Source of the DNA: Bacteroidales bacterium
GTDB taxonomy: Bacteria; Bacteroidota; Bacteroidia; Bacteroidales; UBA932
Assembly (NCBI GenBank): GCA_016287875.1
Contig: JAEEXQ010000003.1
Coordinates: forward strand, 1-64,000
DNA length: 64,000 bases
Direction: 5' to 3'
The position numbers and the translations under genes are program-made. Below the pieces are notes generated by a model that had not been told where the DNA came from, did no database searches, and was given only the letters and a program-made list of their open reading frames with translations. Every line of letters starts with the position of its first letter. Position 1 is the first letter of the stretch. Below, one piece after another: positions 10,776 to 47,176 of this stretch.

Positions 10776-13589
10776 CTATTCTTCGCTGTAAACCTGCACT
10801 ATCACAGTTCCTTTGGCTATGTGCTTTGCCATCGCCTTGATATGGGCGGGCTTTATGCTGCGCACCAGCTTGGCATAGTCGTAGCCGTAAGGCGTGCCCC
10901 AGCGGACGGATGAGAGCATACGGTCCTGCTGGGAGATGACGGAACGCGCTATCCTTGCTTCTTTCTCGCCCCGGGCCTTGACCAGATACTTGACCGCCAG
11001 TTCCATTTCTTCGGCCGTAGGGCCTTCTGCGCACATCCTGGCCATCCCGTCTTCCACGTCCTTGAGGACTATGTCCTTCATCTCGGGGCGTGTCCTGAAG
11101 TCCACGAACGAATGTGAAGGCTGGCCGGGTTTCTCTTCGACCTCGGTGCGGAAAGATACGCTGTAGGCCCCTCCGCGCTCTTCGCGTATAAGGGCGAGGT
11201 AGCGGGCGGACATAATGTAGTTGAGTATGTCCAGGATTGCCCTTTCCTCCTTGGTACAGCCGCCTTTGAAGAAGTAGTTGTAGCTGATGTCGGTGTAGGG
11301 GGCTGCTACGGGTTCGTTGGTCTCGATGAAATCCTTCCTGCCCTTCACGGCTATCTTCAGGGGGATGTTCTTGCCCTTTCCGTAGGCGTAAGGCAGTTCG
11401 AGGGAAGCGATGTACTTCCTTACCAGGCTTTCTATTTCTTCGCGGGGAAGGTCGCTGCAGATTATCACTTTCATCCCCTCGATCTTGCCATAGTAGCGCT
11501 TGAATACGTCTTCTACCAGGGCCAGGTCGGTGGCATTCACCGCGGTGCTGTCTATATCCCTCAGCCAGGGATGGTTGTCGGAGATGACATCCTGGCACTT
11601 CCTTTCGTAGATTTCCCTGGCGCTCTTCTTCTTGCCGAGGCTCTTCAGCTGGGCCGCTTTCTGATGCTCCAGTTCGCGTTCCGTTCCGAAGTAAGGGTCG
11701 GTAAGCTGCAGGTAGGCGGCCTTGAACGCGGTCTCGGCCTTGTCGGCGCGGGAATTGATCTCCATTCGCGCTGCATCCATTCCGCTGGAGAGCATTATGC
11801 TGACGCCGTTCAATTCGGGGTAATTGCGGAATTTGTCTTTATCGCAGTTGCGGAAGCCGGCGTTGCGCTTGATATATCCCAGGGCGAAGCGGCTGGCGTC
11901 GATATTGCCCGGGTCCAGGGCCTTGTAGCCCGTATCGAAAAGAAGGGTCATGCAGAGACGGGGCCCGCTCTTTATGTCCGTGGCCTTCTTGTAGAATACC
12001 TGCACGTTGTTGGAAATGAACCATTTCTCCATATCCGAACCCTTCACCGCGACGCTCCTGCCTATGGCGCCGGGCCTGGCATCCACCTTCAGGTCGAGCT
12101 CGGGATAATCCAGGAAGGCGGGGGAGATGCTCTCGGCATCTACCTTCGCCAGGGCCTCCTTCATCTGTTCCGGAGCGGGAGCTATGCCTTCGTCGTTCTT
12201 ACTGTTGTAGCTATTGGTGTAGATCTTTTCGCTGGTCTCGAACATCATCGCCGGGTAGGGGGCCACATCTTCCGGGGAAATGGCCTCCAGTATGCTCTTG
12301 CGCACTTCCTTGAGGGTTTCGGGCAGGACCAGGGGAGCGCCTTGCAGGAAGGCACCAAGGGCCATTTGCACTATCTCCGAGTTCTTCGTGTCTTCCCTGG
12401 CCGAGTCCCGGTCGAGGTGGAATCTGGATGCTATGTTGATCTTGGCAACCTCTATCTCCTCGGGGGTTATTCCGTGGAGGAGAAGGCGTCTGACCTCGCG
12501 CTCCGAGAACTCCAGGCATCCCAGCAGATTCTCTTTTTTCTTGGGGACGACCGTGATGAGGGATACATAGAGCTCGGGCCTGTAGACGCTGGTCACCAGG
12601 GTGGCGCTCTGGGCGGGGGAGTCCTTGAGCTTGCTGCGCTTCTTGAGCCTGTCGGAGAGCACGGAAGATACTATCTGACGGCAGAAATGATCCTTGTAGA
12701 AGGCTTCTTCCCTCTGGTCGGAGATGGGGAAGCGCTGCTTGTAGATGGCCTTATATGCCTGATATTTGATCTCCGGGTCGGTCATGTCCGCGAACATAGG
12801 TCCGTCGTTTACCGGAGGAATGCATTCGTCTTTGGGCGTGGGATCCACGGCTGCGGGTATGTCGGAGAAAAGGCTCCTCACCCTCGCCTCCATCTTGTCC
12901 ACGTCGAAATCGCCCACGACAATTATGGCCTGCAGGTCGGGGCGGTACCATTTATGGTAGAAATCCAGTATTTCGTGACGCTCGAAGCCGTTTATGACCT
13001 CCAGCTTGCCTATTACGTCGCGCAGGGCGTACTTGGATCCCTTGTACACCAGTTCGTTCTGGCGTTTGGCCATACGGCTGCGGGGATCGTTGCGGAAGCG
13101 CCACTCCTCGCTGATGACTCCGCGTTCATCGTCCAGGGCCTGCTGCTCGCAGGAGATGTCGCAGGACCAGTCGTGCAGCACCATAAGCACGGAATCCACG
13201 AAAGAATCCCTCACCAGAGGCACTTCCGAGAGGTTATAGACGGTCTCGGTCCTGGTGGTGAAGGCATTCACGTTATAACCGAAACGCACGCCTTCCTTGG
13301 CCAGGAAATCGAGTATCCCCTTGCCGGGATAATGCCTGGTGCCGTTGAAGGCCATATGTTCCAGGAAATGGGCCAGACCGTCCTGATTGTCCTCTTCCTG
13401 GAGAGCGCCCACATTGTGCGCGATATAGAACTCCGCGCAGCCCTCGGGCTTCTCGTTATGGCAGAGATAGTAGCTCAGCCCGTTGTCGAGCCTGCCGGTG
13501 CGGAAATCGGGGTCGTCAGGTATGGTCTGGGCAAATACAAAGTGGGCCGCACATAGCATTGCAGCAAATATCAGGAGTGTTCTTTTCAT
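10776..13589 (-). CDS. Periplasmic M16 (insulinase/PqqL-type) zinc peptidase
   Basis: 937 residues with a signal peptide ending at FVFAQ. Two M16 halves: the active half has the inverted zinc motif HFLEH (about 74-78) with a downstream Glu in ERGVISEEW; the second half begins near residue 510 and lacks the motif, as usual. The length fits PqqL/FusC-type single-chain clamshell proteases, which cut small imported proteins or peptides. It is the last gene of the operon headed by the TonB-dependent receptor, starting 16 nt after the DUF6850-like gene. That position suggests it processes the receptor's ligand in the periplasm (inference). Confidence 0.85.
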   Translation of the reverse strand: MKRTLLIFAAMLCAAHFVFAQTIPDDPDFRTGRLDNGLSYYLCHNEKPEGCAEFYIAHNVGALQEEDNQDGLAHFLEHMAFNGTRHYPGKGILDFLAKEGVRFGYNVNAFTTRTETVYNLSEVPLVRDSFVDSVLMVLHDWSCDISCEQQALDDERGVISEEWRFRNDPRSRMAKRQNELVYKGSKYALRDVIGKLEVINGFERHEILDFYHKWYRPDLQAIIVVGDFDVDKMEARVRSLFSDIPAAVDPTPKDECIPPVNDGPMFADMTDPEIKYQAYKAIYKQRFPISDQREEAFYKDHFCRQIVSSVLSDRLKKRSKLKDSPAQSATLVTSVYRPELYVSLITVVPKKKENLLGCLEFSEREVRRLLLHGITPEEIEVAKINIASRFHLDRDSAREDTKNSEIVQMALGAFLQGAPLVLPETLKEVRKSILEAISPEDVAPYPAMMFETSEKIYTNSYNSKNDEGIAPAPEQMKEALAKVDAESISPAFLDYPELDLKVDARPGAIGRSVAVKGSDMEKWFISNNVQVFYKKATDIKSGPRLCMTLLFDTGYKALDPGNIDASRFALGYIKRNAGFRNCDKDKFRNYPELNGVSIMLSSGMDAARMEINSRADKAETAFKAAYLQLTDPYFGTERELEHQKAAQLKSLGKKKSAREIYERKCQDVISDNHPWLRDIDSTAVNATDLALVEDVFKRYYGKIEGMKVIICSDLPREEIESLVRKYIASLELPYAYGKGKNIPLKIAVKGRKDFIETNEPVAAPYTDISYNYFFKGGCTKEERAILDILNYIMSARYLALIREERGGAYSVSFRTEVEEKPGQPSHSFVDFRTRPEMKDIVLKDVEDGMARMCAEGPTAEEMELAVKYLVKARGEKEARIARSVISQQDRMLSSVRWGTPYGYDYAKLVRSIKPAHIKAMAKHIAKGTVIVQVYSEE

Positions 13590-13605: not shown

Positions 13606-15195
13606 TCAGAAATTGCAGCCGAGCACTATCGCGGCTGCATTGCGTGTCTTTCCGTCCAGGTACTCGTTGTCCTTGGTGAGCGTGGTGAAACGGTCGGAGA
13701 GCTTGAGGTAGGGGGCTATGCCCTTGAAAGATAGCAGATGCCAAGTAAACTCCAAGGAAGCACCTGCGCGGGGAGCCGTCTCATACTGGAATTGACGGTT
13801 CAGCCAATTGTCGAAAGATTTGGCTTTGCTGGTGCCAGCTCCATAACTGCCGTCGGACTTTGCATTGCCGCTACCGGCTGTCATTTGCACCGACACGGCG
13901 ATAGAGAAGCAGTCGGCGGGCTTGTTTATATTCCTTTCCGCTTTCAGACCCAGGGTCGCAGATGACAAGTTTTGGTCTCTGTATGTGGGATAAACAGTAG
14001 TATGCTGGTTGCGCAGATGCCCCTCCGCCGATGCGGTGAATATCCAATTTGGCCTGAAGCCGTAAATGCCTTTGTGCATTTCCCAAGTCAGTCGTACATC
14101 TGCTTCCGTACGGTCAAGGACCCTATTGGAACCTATGTAGATGACTTTGGAGGTCATCCCGCTTTCATTCTCGAACTTGTAACTGTTGACATCGTTGGCA
14201 AGGCTGCGGTAGCTGGCTTTCAGATGGATGCGATGCTTCCCGGCTGAAGAAGGGACGTTAACGATGCCTTCGTAAGAAGCTTCCGGGCCACCAAATTCAC
14301 AGAACACGACCGATGAAGATGTCTTGCTGCCGAAATGGCCATTTTTCCAAGATGCGGACAGCTGCTGGAAAGAAGAAACAGTGCCGTTTGTAAATAGTTG
14401 AATTGCGGCTCCGAAACTGTTCCCCGGCATGGGACGGGCATTGGAACGGGAAACATAGCCCAGGTCTCCCACGAAGTCCTCCTTCAAGCCGTAGAAGCTG
14501 CCAAAATCAACCAAGATGTCATACTCCCGGTCTACCGTGCCGAACAAGTCGGCGCTCAGCTGTTCCTGGCGGTGGTTCCAGAACAGATTGCCGCCGGCGG
14601 ATATCCTGTCCGAAAACTTGTACATTGTTCCTGTGTTCAGGGTGAAATCCACCAGCACGTTCAGGAAACGGGGGTCTTTGTATTTTGTCTGGTCTGCCGC
14701 AGTGTAGTCAAAACCTAAGCCTGCGGACAATCTGTCGTTGAAAGACCAGGACAAGGTGCCGTTCAGCGAGTATGTCTCGCGTTTCTTGGTACCTGTGGTG
14801 TTGAGGTCTTCCTCCAGGAAGTTTATGGGATTAAGGGAGGGCTCCATCAAAATCTGCCCACCCATATCGTGACCTCTGAAACAGGAATAGGACAAGCCGC
14901 CGTGAAAGACGAGCTTGTCCGACATCCTGGTATATGATTCGGTTCCGGCTTCGAAGGTCCAGCAGTCGGGCGAGGCTTCAATGGATACAAGCTCTCCGTT
15001 TTCTTTGGAATAGCCTGCATGCATCTCGGAGAAACGCTCGTTACCGAGAATGGATATGGTAGCTGCATTGCTGGAGGACAGCGGAAGCTTCCCATCCTTT
15101 ATCAGTTGGAAATCGCGCACCGGGCCCTGCCCTGCAGTATTGACTGCAAGGCAGAACATCAGTGTGCAGATAATTAGTCCGGAACGCTCCGCCAT
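13606..15195 (-). CDS. Outer-membrane beta-barrel protein, DUF6850-like
   Basis: 529 residues with a signal peptide (MAERSGLIICTLMFCLAVNTAGQG). The body alternates short amphipathic strands and turns, with aromatic strand ends and a terminal Phe (VLGCNF), as in outer-membrane barrels. The pattern GHDMGGQILMEPSLNP and the repeated YS.NG.LSWSFNDRLSAG strands resemble DUF6850, which I recall beside DUF4876 proteins in Bacteroides. Start chosen at 15195, 1 nt past the DUF4876 stop; the track's 15216 would overlap that gene. GC content is clearly lower than in the M16 gene that follows. Confidence 0.6.
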   Translation of the reverse strand: MAERSGLIICTLMFCLAVNTAGQGPVRDFQLIKDGKLPLSSSNAATISILGNERFSEMHAGYSKENGELVSIEASPDCWTFEAGTESYTRMSDKLVFHGGLSYSCFRGHDMGGQILMEPSLNPINFLEEDLNTTGTKKRETYSLNGTLSWSFNDRLSAGLGFDYTAADQTKYKDPRFLNVLVDFTLNTGTMYKFSDRISAGGNLFWNHRQEQLSADLFGTVDREYDILVDFGSFYGLKEDFVGDLGYVSRSNARPMPGNSFGAAIQLFTNGTVSSFQQLSASWKNGHFGSKTSSSVVFCEFGGPEASYEGIVNVPSSAGKHRIHLKASYRSLANDVNSYKFENESGMTSKVIYIGSNRVLDRTEADVRLTWEMHKGIYGFRPNWIFTASAEGHLRNQHTTVYPTYRDQNLSSATLGLKAERNINKPADCFSIAVSVQMTAGSGNAKSDGSYGAGTSKAKSFDNWLNRQFQYETAPRAGASLEFTWHLLSFKGIAPYLKLSDRFTTLTKDNEYLDGKTRNAAAIVLGCNF

Positions 15196-15196
15196 A

Positions 15197-16516
15197 TTAC
15201 TTCTTGATGGAGGCAACCTTCCTCAGGTGGAAGTCGTTGGCAGAATTGTTGGTGTCCATATAGACAATTTTTGCCCCATTGGCGATGGATGCTTCAGCAT
15301 CGATTCCGGAAGGGTCTCCATCCTTTTCGTTATCGACTGCTCCGGCATAGTTGTAAACCAGCTTGCCTTCGTTCTCGGCAATAGCTTCGGTGGCTTCTTT
15401 ATCGACGTTGCGGTAGGTGGTGTAACCGAGCTTCTGGGTAAACACCTGGTATCCGGTATTCACGGCTGCAGGGAAGCGGGAGAAGAATTTGGTCTCATCG
15501 GCGGCCGACCAGAGGTCGAGGGCATCAAGAACCCATTCGGTAGGGATTTTTGCATAATTGCCGGATTTGTTCGTGCTCTTGTTGTCGAAATTGGCCTCGT
15601 TCTTTACGAAAGCCTGGATGTCGGTATCGGGCATAATGAGGAAAGGAGACGCTGTCTGGATAGGGAAAGGCCAGGCTGTTCCTTGTCCGAAGCAGTAAGT
15701 CTTCATGTAATGGCTTTCAGAGATGGTGGAGGAGGGCGCCGGATAGGCAGAAGCCAGATTGAAACCGGACTCCTTGTCATACATTACAAAGTCGGCGTTG
15801 CTGAGATTCACGGAATTGTTGTAAGTTGCCGTGTGATCGATGGCACCGTTAATAGAGACGACAATCTGTCCGTAAGGAGCAATCTCAACTTCTACACCAT
15901 CCTGGAACCACCAGATGCCAAAGGATGCAGGAGTCCATCCCTCTGCTTCATAAGTGTTTGCTCCATTTTCGTCGGCATATTTGTTGGTCGACTTGCTGTT
16001 CGCGATTTGAGCCATTGCGATGCACATCTTGCTGGCATCGACCTTGATATCGGAGTTGTTGTAGATGATGATATACTTGTCGTACTGGTAGTTCTTGGCA
16101 TTCTCATTGTCCATGCAACCTCCGTTATAGACTTCCTTGATAATGAGCTGGCTGCTCTTGGAAGCTGTCAGGGGCAGTTCGAATGTGTTCTCTGCATCCT
16201 TGGCTACGGTAATGTTGGCGTTGCCGTTGTAGTTGAAGACCTGGCCGGCTTCGGACTTCTTGAAAGAAGCAGTGGCAGAATAGGCACCGGCAGCGACAGT
16301 GAACTGTGCGGCACCGTTTTCATCGGTGCTTGCATCGAAGGAAGAAGTTCCGTCGGAAACCGTTACGGTGACACCTTCCTGGGCGAATGCCTGGTTGTCG
16401 GCGGTGAGCTGGACCGTGATGTCATAAGTGACAGGCCCTTTGTTTTTGTTCTCTTTTTCGCAAGATACTGCAGTGATTGCGAGTACTGATGCGAGAATCA
16501 AAAATAACTTTTTCAT
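15197..16516 (-). CDS. DUF4876 surface lipoprotein
   Basis: 439 residues with a lipoprotein signal (LAITAVSCEKE; lipidation Cys at about 19). An Ig-like or CNA-B-like beta domain comes first (about 30-115: VTVTVSDGTSSFDAST...GAAQFTVAAG). The DUF4876 core follows, recognisable by IIKEVYNGGC.., YDKYIIIYNNSD and NLSNADFVMYDKE. Function is unknown; its place directly behind a TonB-dependent receptor suggests a ligand-binding surface partner, as SusD is for SusC. Gap to the receptor is 18 nt and to the barrel gene 1 nt. Confidence 0.7.
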   Translation of the reverse strand: MKKLFLILASVLAITAVSCEKENKNKGPVTYDITVQLTADNQAFAQEGVTVTVSDGTSSFDASTDENGAAQFTVAAGAYSATASFKKSEAGQVFNYNGNANITVAKDAENTFELPLTASKSSQLIIKEVYNGGCMDNENAKNYQYDKYIIIYNNSDIKVDASKMCIAMAQIANSKSTNKYADENGANTYEAEGWTPASFGIWWFQDGVEVEIAPYGQIVVSINGAIDHTATYNNSVNLSNADFVMYDKESGFNLASAYPAPSSTISESHYMKTYCFGQGTAWPFPIQTASPFLIMPDTDIQAFVKNEANFDNKSTNKSGNYAKIPTEWVLDALDLWSAADETKFFSRFPAAVNTGYQVFTQKLGYTTYRNVDKEATEAIAENEGKLVYNYAGAVDNEKDGDPSGIDAEASIANGAKIVYMDTNNSANDFHLRKVASIKK

Positions 16517-16534
16517 AACATCGGTATTTAATGA

Positions 16535-19519
16535 TTAAAACTTGATTCTGAGTGTAAGTCCGTAATAGAACTTGGGAATGTATTGGGACGTGGACAGGTA
16601 CGAGGCTGTCTTGCTGCTCCATATCTGTGCCCTGTTGTTGAAGAAATTATTAGCGTAGAATGATACCGAGGCCCTGTCTCCTATTTCTTTGGTCACACTG
16701 AAATTAGCTGAAAAATAAGGGGAAATGAAATCCTTGCAGAAGGAATAGAGGTATGCGGATTTTGAAGTCAACTGTACCAGATCCATCTTTAAGGCTCCGG
16801 AAGCGGTCTGCAGGTCTTCGAGGAAATTCCTGGGCGTAGGGTCGTCGTAAGTCGTATAATACTCCGGGTAACGCACGACGTAGTTTCTGCCCGAATAGAT
16901 TGATTCGCCCGTAGTCGACAGTACGTCGTTCAGGTTGCTGATGACATTGGATAATTCGGCCCCATCGGCGTCTTCGCTGAGTGCCCGGGAATATTTGAGC
17001 AGGCTGGCCTCCAACTTCATCGAGATTATGAGCCTTATCCTAGGAATGTGGGTGGTAACGGTGATGTTGTTGCGGAGGGACCTGGTCTCGGAACCATTCG
17101 AATAGCTATCTCCACCACGATACCATCCTATGTATTGATAAGGGAGATTGTCCTGTGCAGATTTGAGGGTATAAGGACAGACAGCCCGGATGTCGGTGCT
17201 CAGTGAGCGGTAAGCATATAGGGTGCCGTCAAGCCTTATGGTGGTATTGATAGGGTTGATTTTAGCAAAATCTATTACCCATTCCAGGCCGTACCGGTCG
17301 GTATGACCGGATTCATTGTCGGCATAGTATCTGGGGACCAACTCCCGCCAAATGCTGCCTGCAAGAATTTGGGGAGCTATATTACCATTCCTGTCGGATA
17401 CGGTGACAAGACCTGTGCCCTGATCGATGGAAAACACCCTGTCCTCTTCAGGAATAGGCAGGGTTCCCTGTTCCGTACCAGGAGTGTAGAAATATGACGA
17501 CCTCTCATAGTCACACCCGATACGGTAAGAATCGATGGTGCGGTTCCAGAACGCGGCGAGGGAAATCTTATTACCGGCTATGTCCGTCTCAACACCAAGT
17601 TCGAGAAGACGGTTACGCTGCTTGCGCAGGTCCGGATTGAAGTCGACACTTCGAGGTTGGATATAGTAAGCAGAAAAATACTGGTTTAGGCTGTCGGACT
17701 TTGATGTGAATACGTTGATGTCGCGATACGTGGGAATAGGGTAGAGTACCCCGAGCGAAGGCAGTTTGAAAGCCAGGCCCCAACTGGCCCTGAAGGAAAG
17801 TTCCCGTACAGTCTTGTTCCTCCTGCCCTTGGATGTAAATACCGTGTATTTGACATTGAACCTTGGAGAAAGGCTGGAACTGATACCGTAGGCGGAACCT
17901 TTGATGGCAGTATTGTCCTGACGCAAGCCGGCTATGATATTGAGCTTGCCATTCCCAACGGGGGCCAATAGGTTATCCTCGATATATAGTCCTAAATTGT
18001 TTATGGTGGGGACGTCGCAATACTTGTATTCCCTGAAGGTGGGTGCGGTGGCCATGTCTTCGGAATACTTTCCTATGCCAAAGTTGCGGTCAGTACTCCA
18101 GTCAGCACCAGCTTTTACCTTATTGTTGACCTTTCCTATATGTTTGGCAAGATTGGCTTTCAGGGAAAGCTTGGTCGTGAGAGGACGGTCGTCGTCGCAC
18201 ATAACATTGTACCAGTATCCGGGAGGAATGCTCTTCACGGCTGGAATTCCGGCTCCATCGACATATGCTTCCTCTATGAAATAACCTTTTTCGCGGCCGT
18301 GGAAGACGGTTTTGTTAGAAGGACTGGAGTTATGTGTCCTCTCGCTTGTAGATTTGTCGGAATAAGCGGCGGATGCGTTGAACTCAATGTTCGTGATCCA
18401 GTTCTTGCTGAGCAGCCAGTTTGCACTTAGGTTGACACGTATGGCGTTGTCCCTGCCCTTCGACCAAGTGCCTTGCACCGCATCCGGGTCGGCTGTGGTG
18501 TTCATTCCGCCGAGGTTTCCGGTAATGCCAGCGTTTATACGAATGGGAGCGGACGAAAAAATGCCCGTGTTGAAAAGGTTCATATAAGACAGCGATACCT
18601 GCTTGCGGTTGTATGCGGTATAAGGCGACATCGCTTTCGAAAAAGACTCCGTGTATTCCATGCTAGCGTTGATCACGCCCTTGGCGGCTCCGGAAGAGCT
18701 TACTCCCAAACCAAAACCCTTCGAAATGGAGGTCTGTTTGGTGTTCGGACTGGTGGACATTGTGAGCATCCACGGTGTCTTGCCTTTTTTTGTGTTGATT
18801 TTGACCACACCGGACCCCATATCGCCATATTCCACGGATGGCACGCCAGTAATCACTTCGACCGATTCCACATTGGTTGAAGCGATATTGTTTACCGATA
18901 CACCCTTGTACGAATTAAGTGTAGAAGCTTCGGAGAAGGAGGCGTTGTTGGAAAGCCTCACTCCGTCCACCTCGACGGCTGTTCCGAAGGAGGAATTACC
19001 ATTTTCGGCGCTGCCTGCACGTATGTTGAACTGCCGGTCGGCGGTTAGATCGTTGCTGTTTGTCGCCCCGCCGGGCAGCAGGCTGCTGATGTCTGCGAGG
19101 TTCATAAGCTGGACGTGGTCCAGGGCGGTCTTGTCTATGGTGCGGGAAGTGGTGGCGGAGTTGCCGTCTTCCTTGGCGGTGACCACGGCTCCCTCGAGGG
19201 CGAGGTTGTCCGGTTTGAGGGATATCTTGAAATTGGTGATGTCTTTGCTGATGATGATTTCCTTCGACCAGGTGGCGTAGCCCAGGCAGGCGATGGTGAC
19301 GACGGTCTTTCCGGAAGGAACGTTGCTGATGGAGAAACGGCCTTGCAGGTCGGCCACGGCCCATTGTTCGGTGCCTTCGAGCATCACCGTGGCGAATTCT
19401 ACTGGTTTGCCGGTGGAGTTGTCCAGGACCGAACCTGCGAAGACGCAGGCTTTCTGTGCAGAAAGGTAAGCGCACGACAGGAAAATCCCGGTCAGAATTA
19501 TGGACAGTTTCCTAAACAT
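16535..19519 (-). CDS. TonB-dependent outer-membrane receptor with N-terminal carboxypeptidase-regulatory-like domain
   Basis: 994 residues: signal peptide (to YLSAQ), a CarbopepD-regulatory-like domain (about 25-115, GKPVEFATVMLEG...LGYATW), a plug (about 115-240, VDGVRLSNNASF, VEVITGVPSVEYGDMGSGVV) and a large beta-barrel ending in LRIKF. It would import a large ligand with TonB energy. No SusD follows; instead there are a DUF4876 lipoprotein, a second barrel and an M16 peptidase, so the ligand may be a peptide, protein or metal complex (inference). The track start at 19579 adds a non-homologous leader; the ATG at 19519 is used. GC drops sharply from the first about 190 codons (60-68 % per line) to the rest (about 45-47 %). 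Confidence 0.88.
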   Translation of the reverse strand: MFRKLSIILTGIFLSCAYLSAQKACVFAGSVLDNSTGKPVEFATVMLEGTEQWAVADLQGRFSISNVPSGKTVVTIACLGYATWSKEIIISKDITNFKISLKPDNLALEGAVVTAKEDGNSATTSRTIDKTALDHVQLMNLADISSLLPGGATNSNDLTADRQFNIRAGSAENGNSSFGTAVEVDGVRLSNNASFSEASTLNSYKGVSVNNIASTNVESVEVITGVPSVEYGDMGSGVVKINTKKGKTPWMLTMSTSPNTKQTSISKGFGLGVSSSGAAKGVINASMEYTESFSKAMSPYTAYNRKQVSLSYMNLFNTGIFSSAPIRINAGITGNLGGMNTTADPDAVQGTWSKGRDNAIRVNLSANWLLSKNWITNIEFNASAAYSDKSTSERTHNSSPSNKTVFHGREKGYFIEEAYVDGAGIPAVKSIPPGYWYNVMCDDDRPLTTKLSLKANLAKHIGKVNNKVKAGADWSTDRNFGIGKYSEDMATAPTFREYKYCDVPTINNLGLYIEDNLLAPVGNGKLNIIAGLRQDNTAIKGSAYGISSSLSPRFNVKYTVFTSKGRRNKTVRELSFRASWGLAFKLPSLGVLYPIPTYRDINVFTSKSDSLNQYFSAYYIQPRSVDFNPDLRKQRNRLLELGVETDIAGNKISLAAFWNRTIDSYRIGCDYERSSYFYTPGTEQGTLPIPEEDRVFSIDQGTGLVTVSDRNGNIAPQILAGSIWRELVPRYYADNESGHTDRYGLEWVIDFAKINPINTTIRLDGTLYAYRSLSTDIRAVCPYTLKSAQDNLPYQYIGWYRGGDSYSNGSETRSLRNNITVTTHIPRIRLIISMKLEASLLKYSRALSEDADGAELSNVISNLNDVLSTTGESIYSGRNYVVRYPEYYTTYDDPTPRNFLEDLQTASGALKMDLVQLTSKSAYLYSFCKDFISPYFSANFSVTKEIGDRASVSFYANNFFNNRAQIWSSKTASYLSTSQYIPKFYYGLTLRIKF

Positions 19520-19624: not shown

Positions 19625-21682
19625 ATGAAAAGATTATTCTCCCTATTTGTATTGATTGTCGGCCTGTGTCTTCCTTCCGTCCTAAGTGCGGATGAAGGTA
19701 TGTGGCTGATACACACCGCAAAACCTTCCGTGCAGGCTATGTCGCGCGCGGTTGTTTCCATAGATTTTATGGGCACCGGCAGTTTCGTGTCTGACGACGG
19801 CCTGGTGATAACCAACCACCACGTGGCCTATGCCGACGTGTTTGCGCTCGGCACCAAGGAACACAACTGGCTGGAGGAGGGGTTCTGGGCAAGAAGCCGC
19901 GAAGAGGAGCTTCCTGTCCCGGGGCGCCAGGTCCAGATCCTGAAGGAGACTATTGACGTCACGGCCGAAGTCGAGGCCCTGATTGCCGAAGGTGCCGTGA
20001 AGCCCGGCGGGATGATGATGCGCAAGCTTTCCTGGATAATGGAGAAGCGTTATTCCGAGAAAACCGGCCTGGAGGCCATACTGAGCAGTATGTGGAGGGG
20101 AACCAAGTACTATATCTCCCTATACGAACAGTACAGCGACGTACGTCTGGTGGCGGCTCCTCCTGTTAGCCTGGCGGCTTTCGGAGGCGACGTGGACAAC
20201 TGGGAATGGCCCCAGCACAAGGGCGATTTCGCCATCTACCGCGTATATACCGCTCCCGACGGCAAGAGCGCAAAGTATTCTCCCGAGAACATCCCCCTCA
20301 AATCCCCTGCGAAGTTCAAGATATGCACCAAGGGTATCAAGGAAGGGGAGAAGACCATACTGCTGGGATTCCCCGGCAGGACCAGCCGCTATGCTCCGTC
20401 CGCCAGGGTGAACTATCTCACGGAAACAGAACTCCCTATAGTCAGCGGGCTGCGCAGCAAGCAGATGGAGATAATCTCCTCCTGGATGGACAGGGACCCG
20501 GAGGTGCGCCGCAAGTACGCCGACTACTATTTCGGCCTGTCGAACTTCCAGGAGCTGGCCCTCGGGCAGATGCAGTGCAACAGGCGTTTTTCCGTCGTGG
20601 AGAAAAAGCGCGCCGAGGAAGCCCGTATGCAGGAATGGATAGATGCCGACCCTGCCAGGAAGGAGAAGTGGGGGAGCATGCTGTCGGATCTCGACTCCAA
20701 GTACCAGGCCGTACGCAAGGCCCAGGAGGATGTGATATGGTTCAGGGAGTGCATAGCCAGGGGAACCCGCCTGCATTCCGTGGCATCGCGCACCGCCGCC
20801 CTCAAGAGAAAGAAGGATTCCACCCGTATCGCCGGTAACATACGCGCCGACAAGCGCAACTTCGCCGAGGTGGACCTGCGCGTGGAAAGGGACCTTTTCC
20901 GCCTCGCGCTGGAGAACTACTACGAACATATGAGTCCGGAGATGCTGGGGGACTACCAGAAGGCCCTCCGGGAGAAGTACGGGAAGGACTATGACGCAAT
21001 GTGCGCGGCCCTCTGGGATGCCAGCTGGATAGCGGATCCCGCGCGCACTGAAAAGTTCCTCACCATCGATGAGCATATGAACAACCTGGAAAGCTATCTG
21101 GAGGATCCGCTGGTGCGCTTCTTCGAGGACGGCAAGATGGGGGATTTCAACAGCCGGCTCAGCAAGCTCCAGGGAAAACCCTCCATCAACGACCTTAGCG
21201 GGGAATACACGCACGCACTGTACGGCTTTCGCGAGGCCTCCGGCATAGCCCAGTATCCCGACGCGAACTCCACGATGAGGGCCAATTTCGGCCGCGTTAT
21301 GGGTTATTCCCGGGAGGACGGACTGGATTGCAGATGGTACACCACGGCGGCAGGGATGCTTGCCAAGCACAGGCCGGACGTACACGATTTCTGTATGATT
21401 CCCGGATGGAAGGCCGTGGCTGATACCGCGGATCCCTCGATGAAGATAGATTTCCTTACCGACAACGACAGCACCGGTGGCAACTCGGGCTCGCCGCTCC
21501 TTAACAGGAAAGGCCAGCTGATAGGCCTGCTGTTCGACGGGGTGAAGGAATCACTCGCCACCGACTTCTACTTCATCCCCGAATTCAACCGCAGCGTGAA
21601 CGTGGACATACGCTACGTTCTCTGGGTGCTACGCAATTATGGTAAAATGGATTCCGTACTATCGGAAATGGGTGTAAAATAA
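19625..21682 (+). CDS. S46-family dipeptidyl peptidase, DPP7-like
   Basis: 685 residues with a signal peptide (to SVLSADEGMW). S46 exopeptidases remove N-terminal dipeptides in the periplasm. Catalytic features: His in TNHHVAY (63-69), the FGGDVDNWEWPQHKGDF block and Ser621 in GGNSGSP. The residue 18 after that Ser is Gly (FDGVKE), the state known for DPP7 (hydrophobic P1); DPP11 has Arg there. Odd point: the usual TNHHCGY is changed to TNHHVAY. The track start is far upstream; the ATG at 19625 begins the signal peptide. It is divergent from the TonB receptor and 11 nt ahead of the polyferredoxin gene, so peptide uptake and trimming may be linked. Confidence 0.85.
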   Translation: MKRLFSLFVLIVGLCLPSVLSADEGMWLIHTAKPSVQAMSRAVVSIDFMGTGSFVSDDGLVITNHHVAYADVFALGTKEHNWLEEGFWARSREEELPVPGRQVQILKETIDVTAEVEALIAEGAVKPGGMMMRKLSWIMEKRYSEKTGLEAILSSMWRGTKYYISLYEQYSDVRLVAAPPVSLAAFGGDVDNWEWPQHKGDFAIYRVYTAPDGKSAKYSPENIPLKSPAKFKICTKGIKEGEKTILLGFPGRTSRYAPSARVNYLTETELPIVSGLRSKQMEIISSWMDRDPEVRRKYADYYFGLSNFQELALGQMQCNRRFSVVEKKRAEEARMQEWIDADPARKEKWGSMLSDLDSKYQAVRKAQEDVIWFRECIARGTRLHSVASRTAALKRKKDSTRIAGNIRADKRNFAEVDLRVERDLFRLALENYYEHMSPEMLGDYQKALREKYGKDYDAMCAALWDASWIADPARTEKFLTIDEHMNNLESYLEDPLVRFFEDGKMGDFNSRLSKLQGKPSINDLSGEYTHALYGFREASGIAQYPDANSTMRANFGRVMGYSREDGLDCRWYTTAAGMLAKHRPDVHDFCMIPGWKAVADTADPSMKIDFLTDNDSTGGNSGSPLLNRKGQLIGLLFDGVKESLATDFYFIPEFNRSVNVDIRYVLWVLRNYGKMDSVLSEMGVK

Positions 21683-21693
21683 TTCTATCAGAT

Positions 21694-23688
21694 ATGGCAA
21701 AAAAATCAACTGTCCGCGGCAACTGGCCTAAATACCTGCTCCAGTGGGGAACCCTTGCCGCGTTGGTATTCTTCCTTAGCGGACTGGCTTCCAAGCTCTT
21801 TACCAAGATGGAGCCGGTCAACCCCGAGGCCTATTGCCCCTTCGGCGGCCTGGAGGCTCTAGCTACCTACCTTCAGAGAGGCTCCCTGCCTTGCTCCATG
21901 ACCACTATGCAGATACTTATGGGTATCTTGCTTGCAGCCGTGGTCATCTTCCTCAGCAAACTCTTCTGCGCATATCTCTGCCCCATCGGCACCGTGGAAG
22001 ACCTTCTTATGAAGGCGCGCAAGGCTATGGGCTTCAACGCGGTCAACATCCCCGACGGCAGCATAGCCGACAAGATTCTGCGTATAGTGAAGTACGGCCT
22101 GCTCTTCGTCGTGGTATATTTTACCGTGAGCTCCAGCGAACTCTTCTGCAAGAATATCGACCCTTATTATGCGGTTGCGACCGGGTTCAAGGGGGAAATC
22201 ACCCTGTGGATGAGCCTGACGGCCCTGGCGCTGGTTATCCTGCTGGGCTTCGTCATCAACCGCTTCTGGTGCAAGTATATCTGCCCTCTGGGAGCCATCT
22301 CCAATACCCTTAAGTTCTGGACCTGGCTGGTGGCCCTCGGCCTTCTCTGGTGGGCTGTATCGCTCGTGGGGATCAAGTTCAGCTGGGTATGGCTGCTGGG
22401 GAGCTTCTGCCTCGCGGGGTATCTTCTCGAGATATTCAACCGCAGGCCCCGCCTGCAGCTGATGCACGTGCTGGTGGACCAGGACAACTGCGGCCGCAAG
22501 TGCTACTCCTGCCAGAAAAATTGCCCTTACAACATCGACGTGCCTTCCTTCGGCAGCGTGGTGAACTCCGTGGACTGTGTGCTCTGCGGCGAATGTGTGG
22601 CAGCCTGCCCCACCAAGGCCCTGCGCATCGGCGTGGCTCCTTCCTGCAAGGGATGGAAGTATTCCCGATTCATTCCTCCGTTCATTTCCGTGCTGCTGGT
22701 GGCCCTGGCCCTGATATTCGGTGGCAAGTTCGAAATCCCTACCATCAGCGAAACTTGGGGTGTCGAGGAAGGAATGTCCCTCAAGACTGTCAAGGTATCC
22801 GGCCTCAAGAGCGTCAAGTGCTTCGGCAGTTCTATGGCATTCAAGGCAAGGATGGAGAAGGTCCCTGGCGTACACGGAGTCAAGACCTATGTCGGCAGCC
22901 ACACCGTCGTGGTGTCCTACGATCCCAAGGTGACCGACGCCGAAAAGATCCAGTCCAAGATATTCGTCCCTTCCCGTTTCAAGGTTGCCAGCCCCGATCC
23001 CGAGGCCTTGCCCGAGCTCAAGATAGTTACGCTGCGCGTGGAGAAGATGTACGACAAGATGGACCTGAACTACCTGGGACTTCAGTTCCGCGGCGAGGAC
23101 AAGGGTATCTACGGAGTGGAATCCGAGTATGACTGCCCCGTTGTGGTGCGCGTATATATGGATCCCGCCCAGGAAGCCGACGAAGCCTGGTTCAAGGAGA
23201 TAGTGAACCGCAAGGTGCTCCAGATGCCCGTACACGGCGGCGGCATCAAGGAAACTCCTATGAGCCTCAAGTTCGTAAAGATGGAGAAGGAGGTCGGAAG
23301 CATCTCCACTCCCGAATTCCTGCACAGGATGTTCAATCCTTTCAAGGCCGAGTACAAGCGTCTGCCCGAATATGAGGGCAAGCCCCAGTACATACTCGAA
23401 TTCGAGGACGCCCGCTACGAGAAGCCCATCATCACCCGTTCCCTGCCTTTCCTGAGCAACCATATCTCCAAGGAAGAAGGCGTGCTCGGCACCTATCTGG
23501 TGCTGAACGGCAATCTGCAGCCTGCGCTTCAGATACGCTTCGCGGCCCCCGCTACCGCCGAAAGCATTTGGAAGAGGATGACCATGGACAAATGGACTAT
23601 CACCTACAAGGGCGAAGACAAAATAGAAGACGCCCGCTTGTCTTTCGACAAACCGGGCGTCGTAAAGGCCTATGTGCCTGAGCCTTAG
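21694..23688 (+). CDS. NapH/CcoG-like membrane polyferredoxin fused to an HMA-like domain and a long C-terminal region
   Basis: 664 residues. About six membrane helices in residues 15-345 carry two half motifs (FCAYLCP near 91 and WCKYICP near 192), as in NapH/NosR-type quinol-linked proteins. A two-cluster ferredoxin region follows (CGRKCYSCQKNCP and CVLCGECVAACP, 266-305). After the last helix a domain at about 366-430 has the heavy-metal-associated layout (VSGLKSVKCFGS...VPGVHGVKTYVGSHTVVVSYDP), but CxxC is reduced to one Cys. The last about 230 residues are unrecognised and probably extracytoplasmic. Role unknown; metal-linked electron transfer is an inference. It follows the S46 gene by 11 nt; its stop overlaps that of the convergent GDPD gene. 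Confidence 0.75.
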   Translation: MAKKSTVRGNWPKYLLQWGTLAALVFFLSGLASKLFTKMEPVNPEAYCPFGGLEALATYLQRGSLPCSMTTMQILMGILLAAVVIFLSKLFCAYLCPIGTVEDLLMKARKAMGFNAVNIPDGSIADKILRIVKYGLLFVVVYFTVSSSELFCKNIDPYYAVATGFKGEITLWMSLTALALVILLGFVINRFWCKYICPLGAISNTLKFWTWLVALGLLWWAVSLVGIKFSWVWLLGSFCLAGYLLEIFNRRPRLQLMHVLVDQDNCGRKCYSCQKNCPYNIDVPSFGSVVNSVDCVLCGECVAACPTKALRIGVAPSCKGWKYSRFIPPFISVLLVALALIFGGKFEIPTISETWGVEEGMSLKTVKVSGLKSVKCFGSSMAFKARMEKVPGVHGVKTYVGSHTVVVSYDPKVTDAEKIQSKIFVPSRFKVASPDPEALPELKIVTLRVEKMYDKMDLNYLGLQFRGEDKGIYGVESEYDCPVVVRVYMDPAQEADEAWFKEIVNRKVLQMPVHGGGIKETPMSLKFVKMEKEVGSISTPEFLHRMFNPFKAEYKRLPEYEGKPQYILEFEDARYEKPIITRSLPFLSNHISKEEGVLGTYLVLNGNLQPALQIRFAAPATAESIWKRMTMDKWTITYKGEDKIEDARLSFDKPGVVKAYVPEP

Positions 23689-43939: not shown

Positions 43940-45535
43940 ATGAAAAAAGTATTCATCCTTACAGTCCTGGTGCTGAGCCTGGCTGTGTCCTGCAAAGAAA
44001 AGAAGTCTCCTTTCGAAAGGAACTTAGCTGAATATGCAGTGGTGAAGATCCCTGCACCCGACCTGAGCGGCATTACCGACAACGGAAAGGAAGTTCTCAA
44101 CCTGTACCGTTTCGCCGCCAAGGAAATCGACGCCATCTACTGGGAACAGTATTTCGGCGACAAGTCCCAGCTGGATACCATTTCGGATCCCGCACAGAGA
44201 AACTACGCCCTTATCAATTACGGCCCTTGGGACCGCTTTACCGGGAAGTCCTTCGTCGCCGGTTATGACGACCGCCGCCCCGGAGCCGGCTTCTATCCGG
44301 AGGATATGAGCGTCGCCCAGTTCGAAGCCTGGGAGAATCCCGACAAGAACAGCCCCTACACCCTTGTGCGCCGTGCAGCCGACGGCAGCCTGGAGACCGT
44401 GTGGTATCACGACGCATACAAGGAGCACATCGAGAAGATTGCCAGCTGCCTGACTGCTGCCGCCGACATCACCATAAAGCCCAGCGTGAAAGATTATCTC
44501 CTCAAGAAAGTGGAGGCCCTCAAGACGGATGACTACTATGCCAGCGAAATCGCCTGGCTGGATATGGACGACAGCAAGATGGACCTCGTGATAGGTCCTG
44601 ACGAGGCCGTCGATGACCAGCTCCTGGGCATCAAACGTTCTTACGAGGCATTCGTGCTTCTGAAGAACGCCTCCAGCACCGAAGAACTTACCCAGTATGT
44701 CTCCAGGATAGGCGAGTTCCAGCAGGAACTCCCCGGAGATCCCGCGTACAAGCAGTTCCAGCCCGGTTCCGGCTCGAATATCTTCTCTTGCGATGCTCTC
44801 TACTATGCCGGAAAGGCCAATGCCGGAGTCAAGGTGATAGCCCTGAACCTCCCCTTCGACCCCAAGGTGCAGGAGGAGAGGGGAACCCGTACCATACTCC
44901 TCGAGAATATCATCAGGGCCAAATACAACGCCATCATCTTCCCTGCCGGAGAGGTGCTTCTGGAGACCGGTGAGGACGTGCAGACATCTTCCGACGCCTT
45001 CTTTTGGAACATAGCCCTCCGCGAGGTTTCCCACGGTCTTGGCGTGAAAGAGACGGTGAACGGGAAGGGGAGCGTGGAGAGCGCCCTGGGCAACATGGCA
45101 CAGACTTTCGAGGAGATGAAGGCCAATGTGGCCGGCGTGCTGCAGGTTTGCAAGCTGCAGGACCACTACGACATCCACCATATCTTCACGAAGAAAGATG
45201 CCCTTACCACCTTCTTCGTCTCCCTGGTGCGTTCCGAGCGCTTCGGAGAGGGTTCCGCCCTGGGCCGTGCCAACATCGCCATCTACAATTACCTGCAGGA
45301 AGCCGGAGCATTCAGCCGCAAGGCCTCGGGAAAGTACACCCTGGATTACAAGAAGATGGAGGAAGCCCTTTCGGATCTTACCGCCCTCATACTCAAGACC
45401 CAGGCTACCGGAGATTACGAGTTCGCCTGCGAGTTCGAAAAGAAATACTCGAAGCGCAACGAGAACTACGCTGCCGACAGGCTGAACCTCGGCATTGAAG
45501 GAATTCCTGCCGATATCCGCTTCGAATTCGAATAA
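43940..45535 (+). CDS. M49-like (DPP III-related) lipoprotein with damaged zinc site, copy 1
   Basis: 531 residues. Lipoprotein signal LSLAVSCKEKK. It follows the Bacteroidetes Zn-dependent M49-like family from end to end: INYGPWDR (93), GAGFYPEDM, WYHDAYKE, GLGVKETVNGKGSVESAL and FRSERFG-type C-terminal text. Active members carry HE(V/I)xHGLG and EEGKAD. Here they read REVSHGLG (361-368) and EEMKAN (391-396): the first zinc His is Arg and the Asp is Asn. I infer it is not a metallopeptidase. It is adjacent to a paralogue with further losses and follows the carrier by 20 nt. Confidence 0.78.
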   Translation: MKKVFILTVLVLSLAVSCKEKKSPFERNLAEYAVVKIPAPDLSGITDNGKEVLNLYRFAAKEIDAIYWEQYFGDKSQLDTISDPAQRNYALINYGPWDRFTGKSFVAGYDDRRPGAGFYPEDMSVAQFEAWENPDKNSPYTLVRRAADGSLETVWYHDAYKEHIEKIASCLTAAADITIKPSVKDYLLKKVEALKTDDYYASEIAWLDMDDSKMDLVIGPDEAVDDQLLGIKRSYEAFVLLKNASSTEELTQYVSRIGEFQQELPGDPAYKQFQPGSGSNIFSCDALYYAGKANAGVKVIALNLPFDPKVQEERGTRTILLENIIRAKYNAIIFPAGEVLLETGEDVQTSSDAFFWNIALREVSHGLGVKETVNGKGSVESALGNMAQTFEEMKANVAGVLQVCKLQDHYDIHHIFTKKDALTTFFVSLVRSERFGEGSALGRANIAIYNYLQEAGAFSRKASGKYTLDYKKMEEALSDLTALILKTQATGDYEFACEFEKKYSKRNENYAADRLNLGIEGIPADIRFEFE

Positions 45536-45551
45536 GCAGGAAAACTTTTGC

Positions 45552-45559
45552 TAAATTTG
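45552..45559 (+). promoter_or_regulatory. Candidate -7 element for the second M49-like gene
   Basis: TAAATTTG in the 42-nt gap between the two paralogues, 18 nt before the ATG. No good -33 element, so an internal promoter is only possible. Confidence 0.35.
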
Positions 45560-45577
45560 TAGAAACTGTAACCAATT

Positions 45578-47176
45578 ATGAAGAATCTGATAGTTGTATG
45601 TTCGGTCCTGGCCCTGGCCGCCGTTTCCTGTAAGGAGGAAAAGGTCGATGTGGGCAGGCTGGTGGATGATTATGCCCTGGTGGAGATACCGGCCCCGGAT
45701 CTGACGGGCATTACCGACAATGGCAAGGAGGTCCTCAGGCTTTACCGACTGGCCGCCGACGAGGTGGACAAGATATACTGGCAGCAGTATTTCGGCGACG
45801 GAGCCGCCTTCCTGGATTCCCTCGAGGATAAGTCCGAAAAGCTTTATGCCGGAATCAACTACGGCCCTTGGGACCGCATCACCGGAAAGCCTTTCCTTCC
45901 CGGTTTCGGGCAGAAGCCTGCCGGTGCGCGTTTCTATCCCGAAGATATGACTGCAGAGGAATTCCGTAATTGGGACAACCCCGACAAGAGTTCTCCTTAT
46001 ACCCTCGTGCGCCGTGCCGACGACGGCAGCCTGGAGACCGTATGGTACCACGATGCATATAAGGAATCCATAGGCAAGATAGAAGGGTTGCTGCAGCGTG
46101 CGGCCGATGTTACCATAAAAGAAAGCGTACGCAAGTATCTGCTCAAGATGATCGAAGGCCTCAAGACCGACGATTATTACGAGAGCGACAAGGCCTGGCT
46201 GGAGATGAACGACAGCAAGATGGACCTCGTCATCGGCCCCATAGAGGCCGTGGACGATGGTCTTTACGGCACCAAGGCTTCCTACGGGGCATATGTGCTG
46301 CTGAAGAATCTCCGCCGCACCGAGGAGCTCAACGCCCTTTCGGCCCGTATGCAGGAGTTCCAGGCAATGCTCCCCGGCGATGCCGCCTTCCACAGCTTCG
46401 TGCCCGGCTCCGAGTCGGATATCTTCTCCTGCAACGTGCTATACTGCAGCGGTTACACCAATGCCGGCTTCAAGGTCATAGGCATCAACTTCCCTTATGA
46501 TGCCAAGGCCCAGCAGGAGTACGGCACCCGCACTATAATCTTCGACAACATCATACGCGAGAAGTTCAACCGTACCGTCCATCCCGTGGGCAGCGCCCTG
46601 CTGGAGGATGTTTATCAGCCCCACGTGGATGCGAGCGCTTTCTACTGGCTGATAGTATTCCGCGAGATAGCCAAGGGACTGGGTGTCAAGGAGACTGTAA
46701 ACGGCAGGGGAACTGTCGCAGAGGCCCTCTCGAGCGAGGCCCTGGTGATGGAAAAAGCCAAATCCAATGTGCTGGGTGCCTGGCTATGCGCACAGGAGGC
46801 TGCCGCGTACAATATCTCCACCCTTTTCCAGAAGGAGGATGTACTTACTACCTTCGTGACAAACATAATCCGTTCTACCCGCTTCGGCGCCGCGGATCCT
46901 ACCGGCATAGCCAATATAGTGGTCTATAATTATCTTCTCGAAAGCAACGCTATCGACTGGAAACCTTCCGGCCGCTATAGCATCGACTACGACAGGACCT
47001 GGAAGGCCCTCGAAACCCTTGGCTCGGAAATACTCCGCATCCAGGCCTACGGCGACGTGGAAGCCGCCCGCAGCTGGATTGCCAAGTACGGCATCGCCGG
47101 CCCCGAGAGCCTATCCGACAAGCGGCTCCTGGAGAAGTCCGGTATCCCCGTGGATATCCGTTTCAGCTACGAGTAG
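45578..47176 (+). CDS. M49-like (DPP III-related) lipoprotein with destroyed zinc site, copy 2
   Basis: 532 residues. Lipoprotein signal LALAAVSCKEE. Tandem paralogue of the preceding gene, colinear over the whole length (GITDNGKEVLRLYRLAA, INYGPWDRITGK, SSPYTLVRRADDGSLETVWYHDAYKE are shared nearly word for word). Its zinc motif is more degraded: HE..H has become REIAK (362-366), losing both His, and EEGKAD has become EKAKSN. The frame is intact and conserved, so the protein is probably functional in a non-enzymatic way. Its stop is 2 nt from the convergent lysA stop. Confidence 0.78.
   Translation: MKNLIVVCSVLALAAVSCKEEKVDVGRLVDDYALVEIPAPDLTGITDNGKEVLRLYRLAADEVDKIYWQQYFGDGAAFLDSLEDKSEKLYAGINYGPWDRITGKPFLPGFGQKPAGARFYPEDMTAEEFRNWDNPDKSSPYTLVRRADDGSLETVWYHDAYKESIGKIEGLLQRAADVTIKESVRKYLLKMIEGLKTDDYYESDKAWLEMNDSKMDLVIGPIEAVDDGLYGTKASYGAYVLLKNLRRTEELNALSARMQEFQAMLPGDAAFHSFVPGSESDIFSCNVLYCSGYTNAGFKVIGINFPYDAKAQQEYGTRTIIFDNIIREKFNRTVHPVGSALLEDVYQPHVDASAFYWLIVFREIAKGLGVKETVNGRGTVAEALSSEALVMEKAKSNVLGAWLCAQEAAAYNISTLFQKEDVLTTFVTNIIRSTRFGAADPTGIANIVVYNYLLESNAIDWKPSGRYSIDYDRTWKALETLGSEILRIQAYGDVEAARSWIAKYGIAGPESLSDKRLLEKSGIPVDIRFSYE

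Follow-up and report, generated by a model that had tools for sequence, protein, structure and literature searches.

A TonB-dependent receptor gene in the genome of a Bacteroidales bacterium changes its base composition sharply within its reading frame, and this raises the question of whether the two sides of the step have different origins. A sequence-only reading of the locus had proposed that they do, the barrel of the receptor, the neighbouring lipoprotein and a second barrel having been replaced by recombination while the native N-terminal domain and the protease were kept. We find that amino acid identities, gene trees and AU tests support this proposal. The receptor gene is a chimera, the edges of the foreign part can be placed, and the allele types form clades of their own. 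We consider it very probable (roughly 90%) that the window, by which we mean the whole stretch of 64,000 nucleotides under analysis, contains a natural recombinant uptake locus in which 5.3 kb were overwritten by a type-A allele of another species of the genus. The window is part of an 86-kb contig (C85) in a MAG assembly of 2.18 Mb and 106 contigs that is 97.5% complete with 2.6% contamination. The features that matter here are the following.

10776 to 13589, minus strand: M16 peptidase, native flank; HxxEH motif kept (HFLEH, residue 74); 89% amino acid identity to G354.
13606 to 15195, minus strand: DUF6850 outer-membrane beta-barrel (Pfam PF21012, E 2.9e-40); imported except for its last 39 codons (13606 to 13722).
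15197 to 16516, minus strand: DUF4876 surface lipoprotein, lipobox Cys19 (Pfam PF16215, E 5.9e-19); imported.
16535 to 19519, minus strand: TonB-dependent receptor of 994 amino acids, chimeric, the 5' 151 codons native and the remainder imported (Pfam CarbopepD_reg_2 and Plug).
13723 to 19062, minus strand: exchanged module of about 5.34 kb, comprising receptor codons 152 to the end, the whole of DUF4876, and DUF6850 minus its last ~39 codons.
19061 to 19093, minus strand: plug motif DISSLLPGGAT (residues 143 to 153), site of the 5' crossover.
19066 to 19519, minus strand: native 5' part of the receptor, with signal peptide, CarbopepD_reg-like domain, TonB-box region and first plug motif.
19175 to 19198, minus strand: TonB-box-like motif LEGAVVTA (residues 108 to 115), assigned by analogy with RagA; retained.
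19625 to 21682, plus strand: divergent S46 peptidase (DPP7/DPP11 type), native flank; GNSG motif kept; 91% amino acid identity to G354.

Domain profiles identify the receptor, which starts at the ATG at 19,519, as TonB-dependent with an N-terminal extension, the CarbopepD_reg-like domain and the plug both scoring above the Pfam cut-offs. The DUF4876 profile reaches 69.3 bits against a cut-off of 27.9, and the DUF6850 profile 139.2 bits against 27. The AlphaFold model of the former has a pLDDT of 88.5; that of the latter (pLDDT 90.4) is a many-stranded barrel whose top matches are FadL and TonB receptors. Searching the PDB by sequence with the three module proteins gave nothing useful, the receptor having no match among solved structures at E 1e-3. 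The arrangement of a divergent S46 gene next to receptor-DUF4876-DUF6850-M16 is common to many loci of the genus. Adjoining S46, at 21694-23688, is a gene for a membrane polyferredoxin-like protein with 4Fe-4S and heavy-metal-associated domains, which is kept near the locus in several relatives. Elsewhere in the window, at 43940-47176, two neighbouring genes resemble each other in size and in their lipoprotein-like N-termini; the first of them has a match to M49 (dipeptidyl-peptidase III) and adjoins a sodium:sulfate/citrate-type symporter.

The compositional step was confirmed. In a sliding profile of the window, GC is about 0.50 between 13,600 and 18,950 and 0.55-0.60 in both flanks. GC3 of the receptor is 0.77 in codons 1-165 and 0.59 in later codons, with DUF4876 at 0.61, DUF6850 at 0.63, M16 at 0.75 and S46 at 0.74, on a background of 0.718 (sd 0.059; 253 genes from sampled stretches of the same genome). 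The change-point falls at codon 165, window position 19,024, with an LLR of 10.1, the maximum in 500 permutations being 7.9. The GC3 difference between N-part and barrel is +0.109 in this receptor and lies between -0.22 and +0.018 in the other 25 of the genome's 26 plug-containing receptors, none of which shows a comparable drop in the same direction. The percentages first counted by hand thus had the right pattern, with values several points off: the first part of the receptor, put at 60-68% GC, measures 57% (77% GC3), and the M16 gene, put at about 62%, has an overall value of 56.4%.

Taken alone as proof of exchange, the GC step was ruled out by another receptor of the same genome, on contig C74 (L101:1-2469), which has the genome's strongest GC3 step (0.63 to 0.855 at codon 223, LLR 22.8) and no swap. 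This receptor shares 80-94% identity with its orthologues (93% with G354, 84-85% with others), similar on either side of the step, and the step is present in G354 (0.63/0.79) and missing from the G192 group; judged from these sequences, its composition has moved without exchange. Moreover, over 48 orthologous loci the module averages 0.037 less GC3 than its flanks (sd 0.055), so that part of the dip in the window, at -0.140 the third lowest, is generic to the operon. Since the step is not diagnostic, a comparative test was required. Elsewhere in the scan of genes, many of the large GC3 "steps" seem to come from start codons set too far upstream. Other compositional features include a late GC3 fall in a gene on contig C25 (L092:13195-16281; 0.75 to 0.50 at codon 886) and three receptor loci on contigs C9, C6 and C73 (L082, L086, L093) with uniformly low GC3 (0.50-0.61), which are candidates for acquisition of the whole operon. 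In another genome, locus L147 (G299) carries a stronger version of the window's signature, with GC3 of 0.70 in the receptor N-part, 0.45 in the module and 0.64 in the flank, and is likely a recent import from a low-GC donor.

For the comparison, 400 genomes of the genus were screened for the receptor, which supplied about 60 loci, each at most 20 kb long; the close comparison genomes appear to be MAGs, and a scan of GTDB contigs with M16 added few useful close loci, the remainder being distant. By their flanks the nearest relatives of the window are G354, then G192, G195 and G196. The expectation of conserved flanks around a variable centre was borne out in these relatives, which share the gene order: S46, the receptor N-part and M16 are 73-91% identical to the window at the amino acid level, and the middle pieces 41-55% (barrel 53-55%, DUF4876 43-46%, DUF6850 41-44%). 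Against G354 itself, S46 is 91%, receptor residues 1-151 are 87% (94% over residues 26-151) and M16 is 89% identical, and identity then falls to 53% for the receptor from residue 152 to its end, 43% for DUF4876 and 41% for DUF6850. G354 and G192 align with each other in a single unbroken stretch of 18 kb at 75%, therefore the change occurred on the window's side.

Nucleotide identity between the window and G354 is about 0.4-0.6 within the module and exceeds 0.9 at both edges, and base-by-base alignment shows the change at the edges to be sharp, within about 10 bases. On the right, identity is 0.92-0.93 in two 60-base bins (19,080-19,199) and about 0.6 left of ~19,062; the 5' crossover corresponds to receptor codon 152, immediately past ...LADISSLLPGGA, 37 residues downstream of LEGAVVTA. 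On the left, the bin at 13,620 still has an identity of 0.93, which is lost directly after 13,722; the 3' crossover is therefore at 13,722/13,723, and the final 39 codons of DUF6850 are native. The module consists of three genes only, without a notable flanking repeat. The edges originally proposed from composition, 13,620 and 18,950, were right in setting the break in the plug region and need correction in detail: the right edge lies about 110 bases closer to the receptor start, and the left one, described as a return near the M16 gene, is in fact inside the DUF6850 gene. Likewise, what had been called a regulatory domain was indeed kept, and is better described as a CarbopepD_reg-like extension together with the TonB-box region and the first plug motif. 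The two edges differ in conservation between allele types A and B. Stretches within codons 105-152, at the TonB box and the start of the plug, are among the best conserved, with a mean nucleotide identity of 0.71-0.82 between the types; the DUF6850 3' edge, at about 0.52, is a stretch without particular conservation, and a crossover there therefore needed a donor that was more similar locally.

The trees of flanks and module conflict. In those of the N-part, S46 and M16, the window groups with G354 and then G192/G196/G195, in line with the proposal that the N-terminal domain and the protease are native. In those of the barrel, DUF4876 and DUF6850 it falls apart from these relatives, in a type-A clade with G027, G095, G337, G265, G224, G347, G101, G315 and G028a (where present). 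In AU tests on "quick" trees, whose p values are descriptive because the groups were named after the identity tables had been seen, grouping the window with G354, G192, G196 and G195 was rejected by the barrel (p 1.8e-5, dlnL 234), DUF4876 (p 2e-112) and DUF6850 (p 5e-53), and type A as a clade was rejected by M16 (p 2e-31), the N-part (p 2e-7) and S46 (p 7e-7). A triplet recombination test along the operon found the same segment, from REC:156-160 to D6850:478-498, with none of 2000 permutations as extreme. The lipoprotein allele co-segregates with the receptor, the barrel and DUF4876 trees sharing the type-A clade, and DUF6850 agrees. Orthologous loci thus neither share one GC profile nor give congruent trees, the two observations that would have spoken for compositional constraint.

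The replacement in the window is one of several. The M16 tree contains at least six type changes, or five if the unresolved fork of G224/G347/G104 is discounted, hence the genus has switched between A and B no fewer than five times. Fresh cases include G224 and G347 (type A) against G104 (type B), with M16 at 94-95%, the barrel at 53% and the break at codon 153, and G027 (A) against G357 (B), with M16 at 91%, the barrel at 60% and the break between codons 152 and ~170. Across the four genome pairs of fresh cases, nucleotide identity is 0.83-1.00 over codons 141-152 and drops to 0.52-0.64 over codons 153-164; three fresh switches break at or just past codon 152. Their 3' edges differ, lying in the DUF6850 tail in the window and at the start of mature M16 in the other fresh cases. 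Older A/B pairs between near-identical flanks are G095/G189 and G101/G242. In each fresh pair the type-A member is lower in module GC3 relative to its flanks (-0.09 to -0.14, with type-B partners at -0.04 to -0.06), which suggests that type A is the imported version in these cases. A different configuration is seen in G373 and G350 (L155, L162), whose M16 genes are 96% and next genes 98% identical while the whole receptor including the N-part, DUF4876 and DUF6850 differ; the edge is therefore not always at codon 152.

A question remains, could the locus have arisen without import from another species? An assembler that joined a foreign 5.3-kb contig at two conserved stretches would create the same picture, and a MAG of many contigs with some contamination, whose 5' junction sits where the nucleotide sequence of the receptor N-part is best conserved, gives grounds for considering it. 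We nevertheless regard such an artefact as quite unlikely, given that independent assemblies show the identical 5' junction, among them G224 (on a 72-kb contig) and G347 (on one of 211 kb), and that both junctions would have to be wrong on one contig, with frame and gene order left intact. RagA alleles of Porphyromonas gingivalis, studied across collected strains by PCR, sequencing and genomes, also argue against it, their first 150 residues being likewise conserved (PMC11817032). It is less probable still that the module came from within the genome, by gene conversion from a second copy or through an invertible shufflon. Some species could convert internally, as G028 carries a type-A and a type-B-like locus in one genome (L033, L035), but the window genome, at 97.5% completeness, yielded no second receptor copy of either type and no alternative barrel beside the module. 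Invertible phase-variable surface loci of Bacteroides have inverted repeats and an alternative cassette, whereas no long or near-perfect inverted repeat flanks this module, the best spanning pair being 25 nt at 72%.

That no exchange took place at all, and that a surface-exposed barrel and its partners simply evolved faster under diversifying selection with GC tracking amino acid content, is in our view scarcely credible. Variation in such receptors resides in the barrel, and the slightly lower module GC3 across the 48 loci would fit, but selection on protein sequence does not account for the fourfold sites, at which identity to G354 collapses from 0.72 in the N-part to 0.36 in the barrel (S46 0.57, DUF4876 0.56 from 84 sites only, DUF6850 0.41, M16 0.75); fast protein evolution is therefore not the cause. 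Nor is the fall in identity gradual, and the middle genes give a well-supported topology of their own instead of long branches on a shared one. Other receptors of the genome lack a comparable pattern, a core receptor being 93% identical to G354 throughout. Replacement by a type-A allele of another species thus remains our preferred reading; no actual donor of the module came to light, the best type-A relatives having about 65% amino acid identity in the barrel.

Such a replacement would have begun in an ancestor that already held the S46 / receptor-DUF4876-DUF6850-M16 locus. Through homologous recombination, a distantly related type-A stretch from another species of the genus would have replaced the resident 5.3 kb, with one crossover in the conserved plug-start motif past the TonB-box region (codon 152) and the other near the end of DUF6850. 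Codons 105-152 being among the best conserved between the types, recombination would resolve there, and only there would signal peptide, N-terminal domain and TonB contact stay matched to the host. The product is an in-frame chimera, in which the secretion signal, the N-terminal domain facing the periplasm, the TonB contact, the control region upstream and the two peptidases are native, and which gains a matched surface-exposed set of plug/barrel, lipoprotein and second barrel. Co-segregation of DUF4876 and DUF6850 with the barrel is evidence that they form one working complex, and presumably for this reason the exchanged parts must move together.

What such a complex takes up can be suggested only tentatively: the locus may serve to import an iron-bearing or peptide-like ligand that M16 and S46 would then cleave, and the choice of ligand would lie with the exchanged parts. 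These parts may also set the exposure of the cell to phages or immunity, and escape from phages or antibodies is an equally plausible selective force. In the Fus and PqqL systems a TonB receptor is encoded with an HxxEH M16 peptidase; such clusters import iron proteins in Fus, and import followed by cleavage in the periplasm is the proposed logic (PMC6793856). By analogy, the M16 gene of the window operon, with its intact HFLEH motif in an order seen in many loci, may play a similar part. Fus clusters come from Proteobacteria, whereas the window encodes a Bacteroidota receptor with an N-terminal extension, DUF4876, DUF6850 and S46. DUF4876 lipoproteins stand beside TonB receptors in the iron-stimulon loci PG1019-1022 of P. 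gingivalis and BT1933-39 and BT3625-33 of B. thetaiotaomicron, and such loci rise strongly under iron or hemin limitation (PMC10434189, PMC10470040). The predicted structure of the window's DUF4876 protein matches BT_1938 in a Foldseek search (PDB 4q1z, E 1.6e-19). Module exchange, which is present in the window locus, is not among the features described for the iron-stimulon loci in the portions of those reports that we draw on.

The closest parallel is RagAB. In the four ragAB types (1-4) of P. gingivalis the first 450 bases of ragA (150 amino acids) are nearly identical and include the TonB box at residues 103-108, the rest of ragA and ragB diverges, and each ragA type always goes with the matching ragB type (PMC11817032); surface-protein variants of this species form a mosaic without relation to the strain tree (PMC5266723). 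The window shares with RagAB the pairing of TonB receptor and surface lipoprotein, a conserved 5' part (150 residues in RagA, a break at codon 152 here), co-segregating alleles and a distribution incongruent with the phylogeny of the flanks. The same joint in RagA suggests that specificity cassettes can replace one another behind a conserved end that faces TonB, which predicts functional chimeras. The stretch past the TonB box might, though the case is still tentative, be a joint at which the TonB receptors of Bacteroidota exchange parts in general, RagA and the window system then being two independent instances. If so, the host lineage keeps energy coupling and regulation, and whole specificity cassettes travel between species via conserved ends. 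Whole-gene receptor trees mix two histories. What began as a GC step counted by hand has in this way become an exchange of an outer-membrane uptake cassette that runs between species, has happened repeatedly and has been mapped. The differences from RagAB are equally clear: RagB is a SusD-like (TPR) lid whereas the window lipoprotein belongs by Pfam and predicted fold to DUF4876, a third gene, the DUF6850 barrel, moves too, and the exchange, both edges of which are mapped, runs from species to species inside one genus and leaves the S46 and M16 flanks in place. The locus therefore represents allelic exchange of the RagAB kind, the same process in a different receptor/lipoprotein family, recurrent, between species and with an extra barrel gene.
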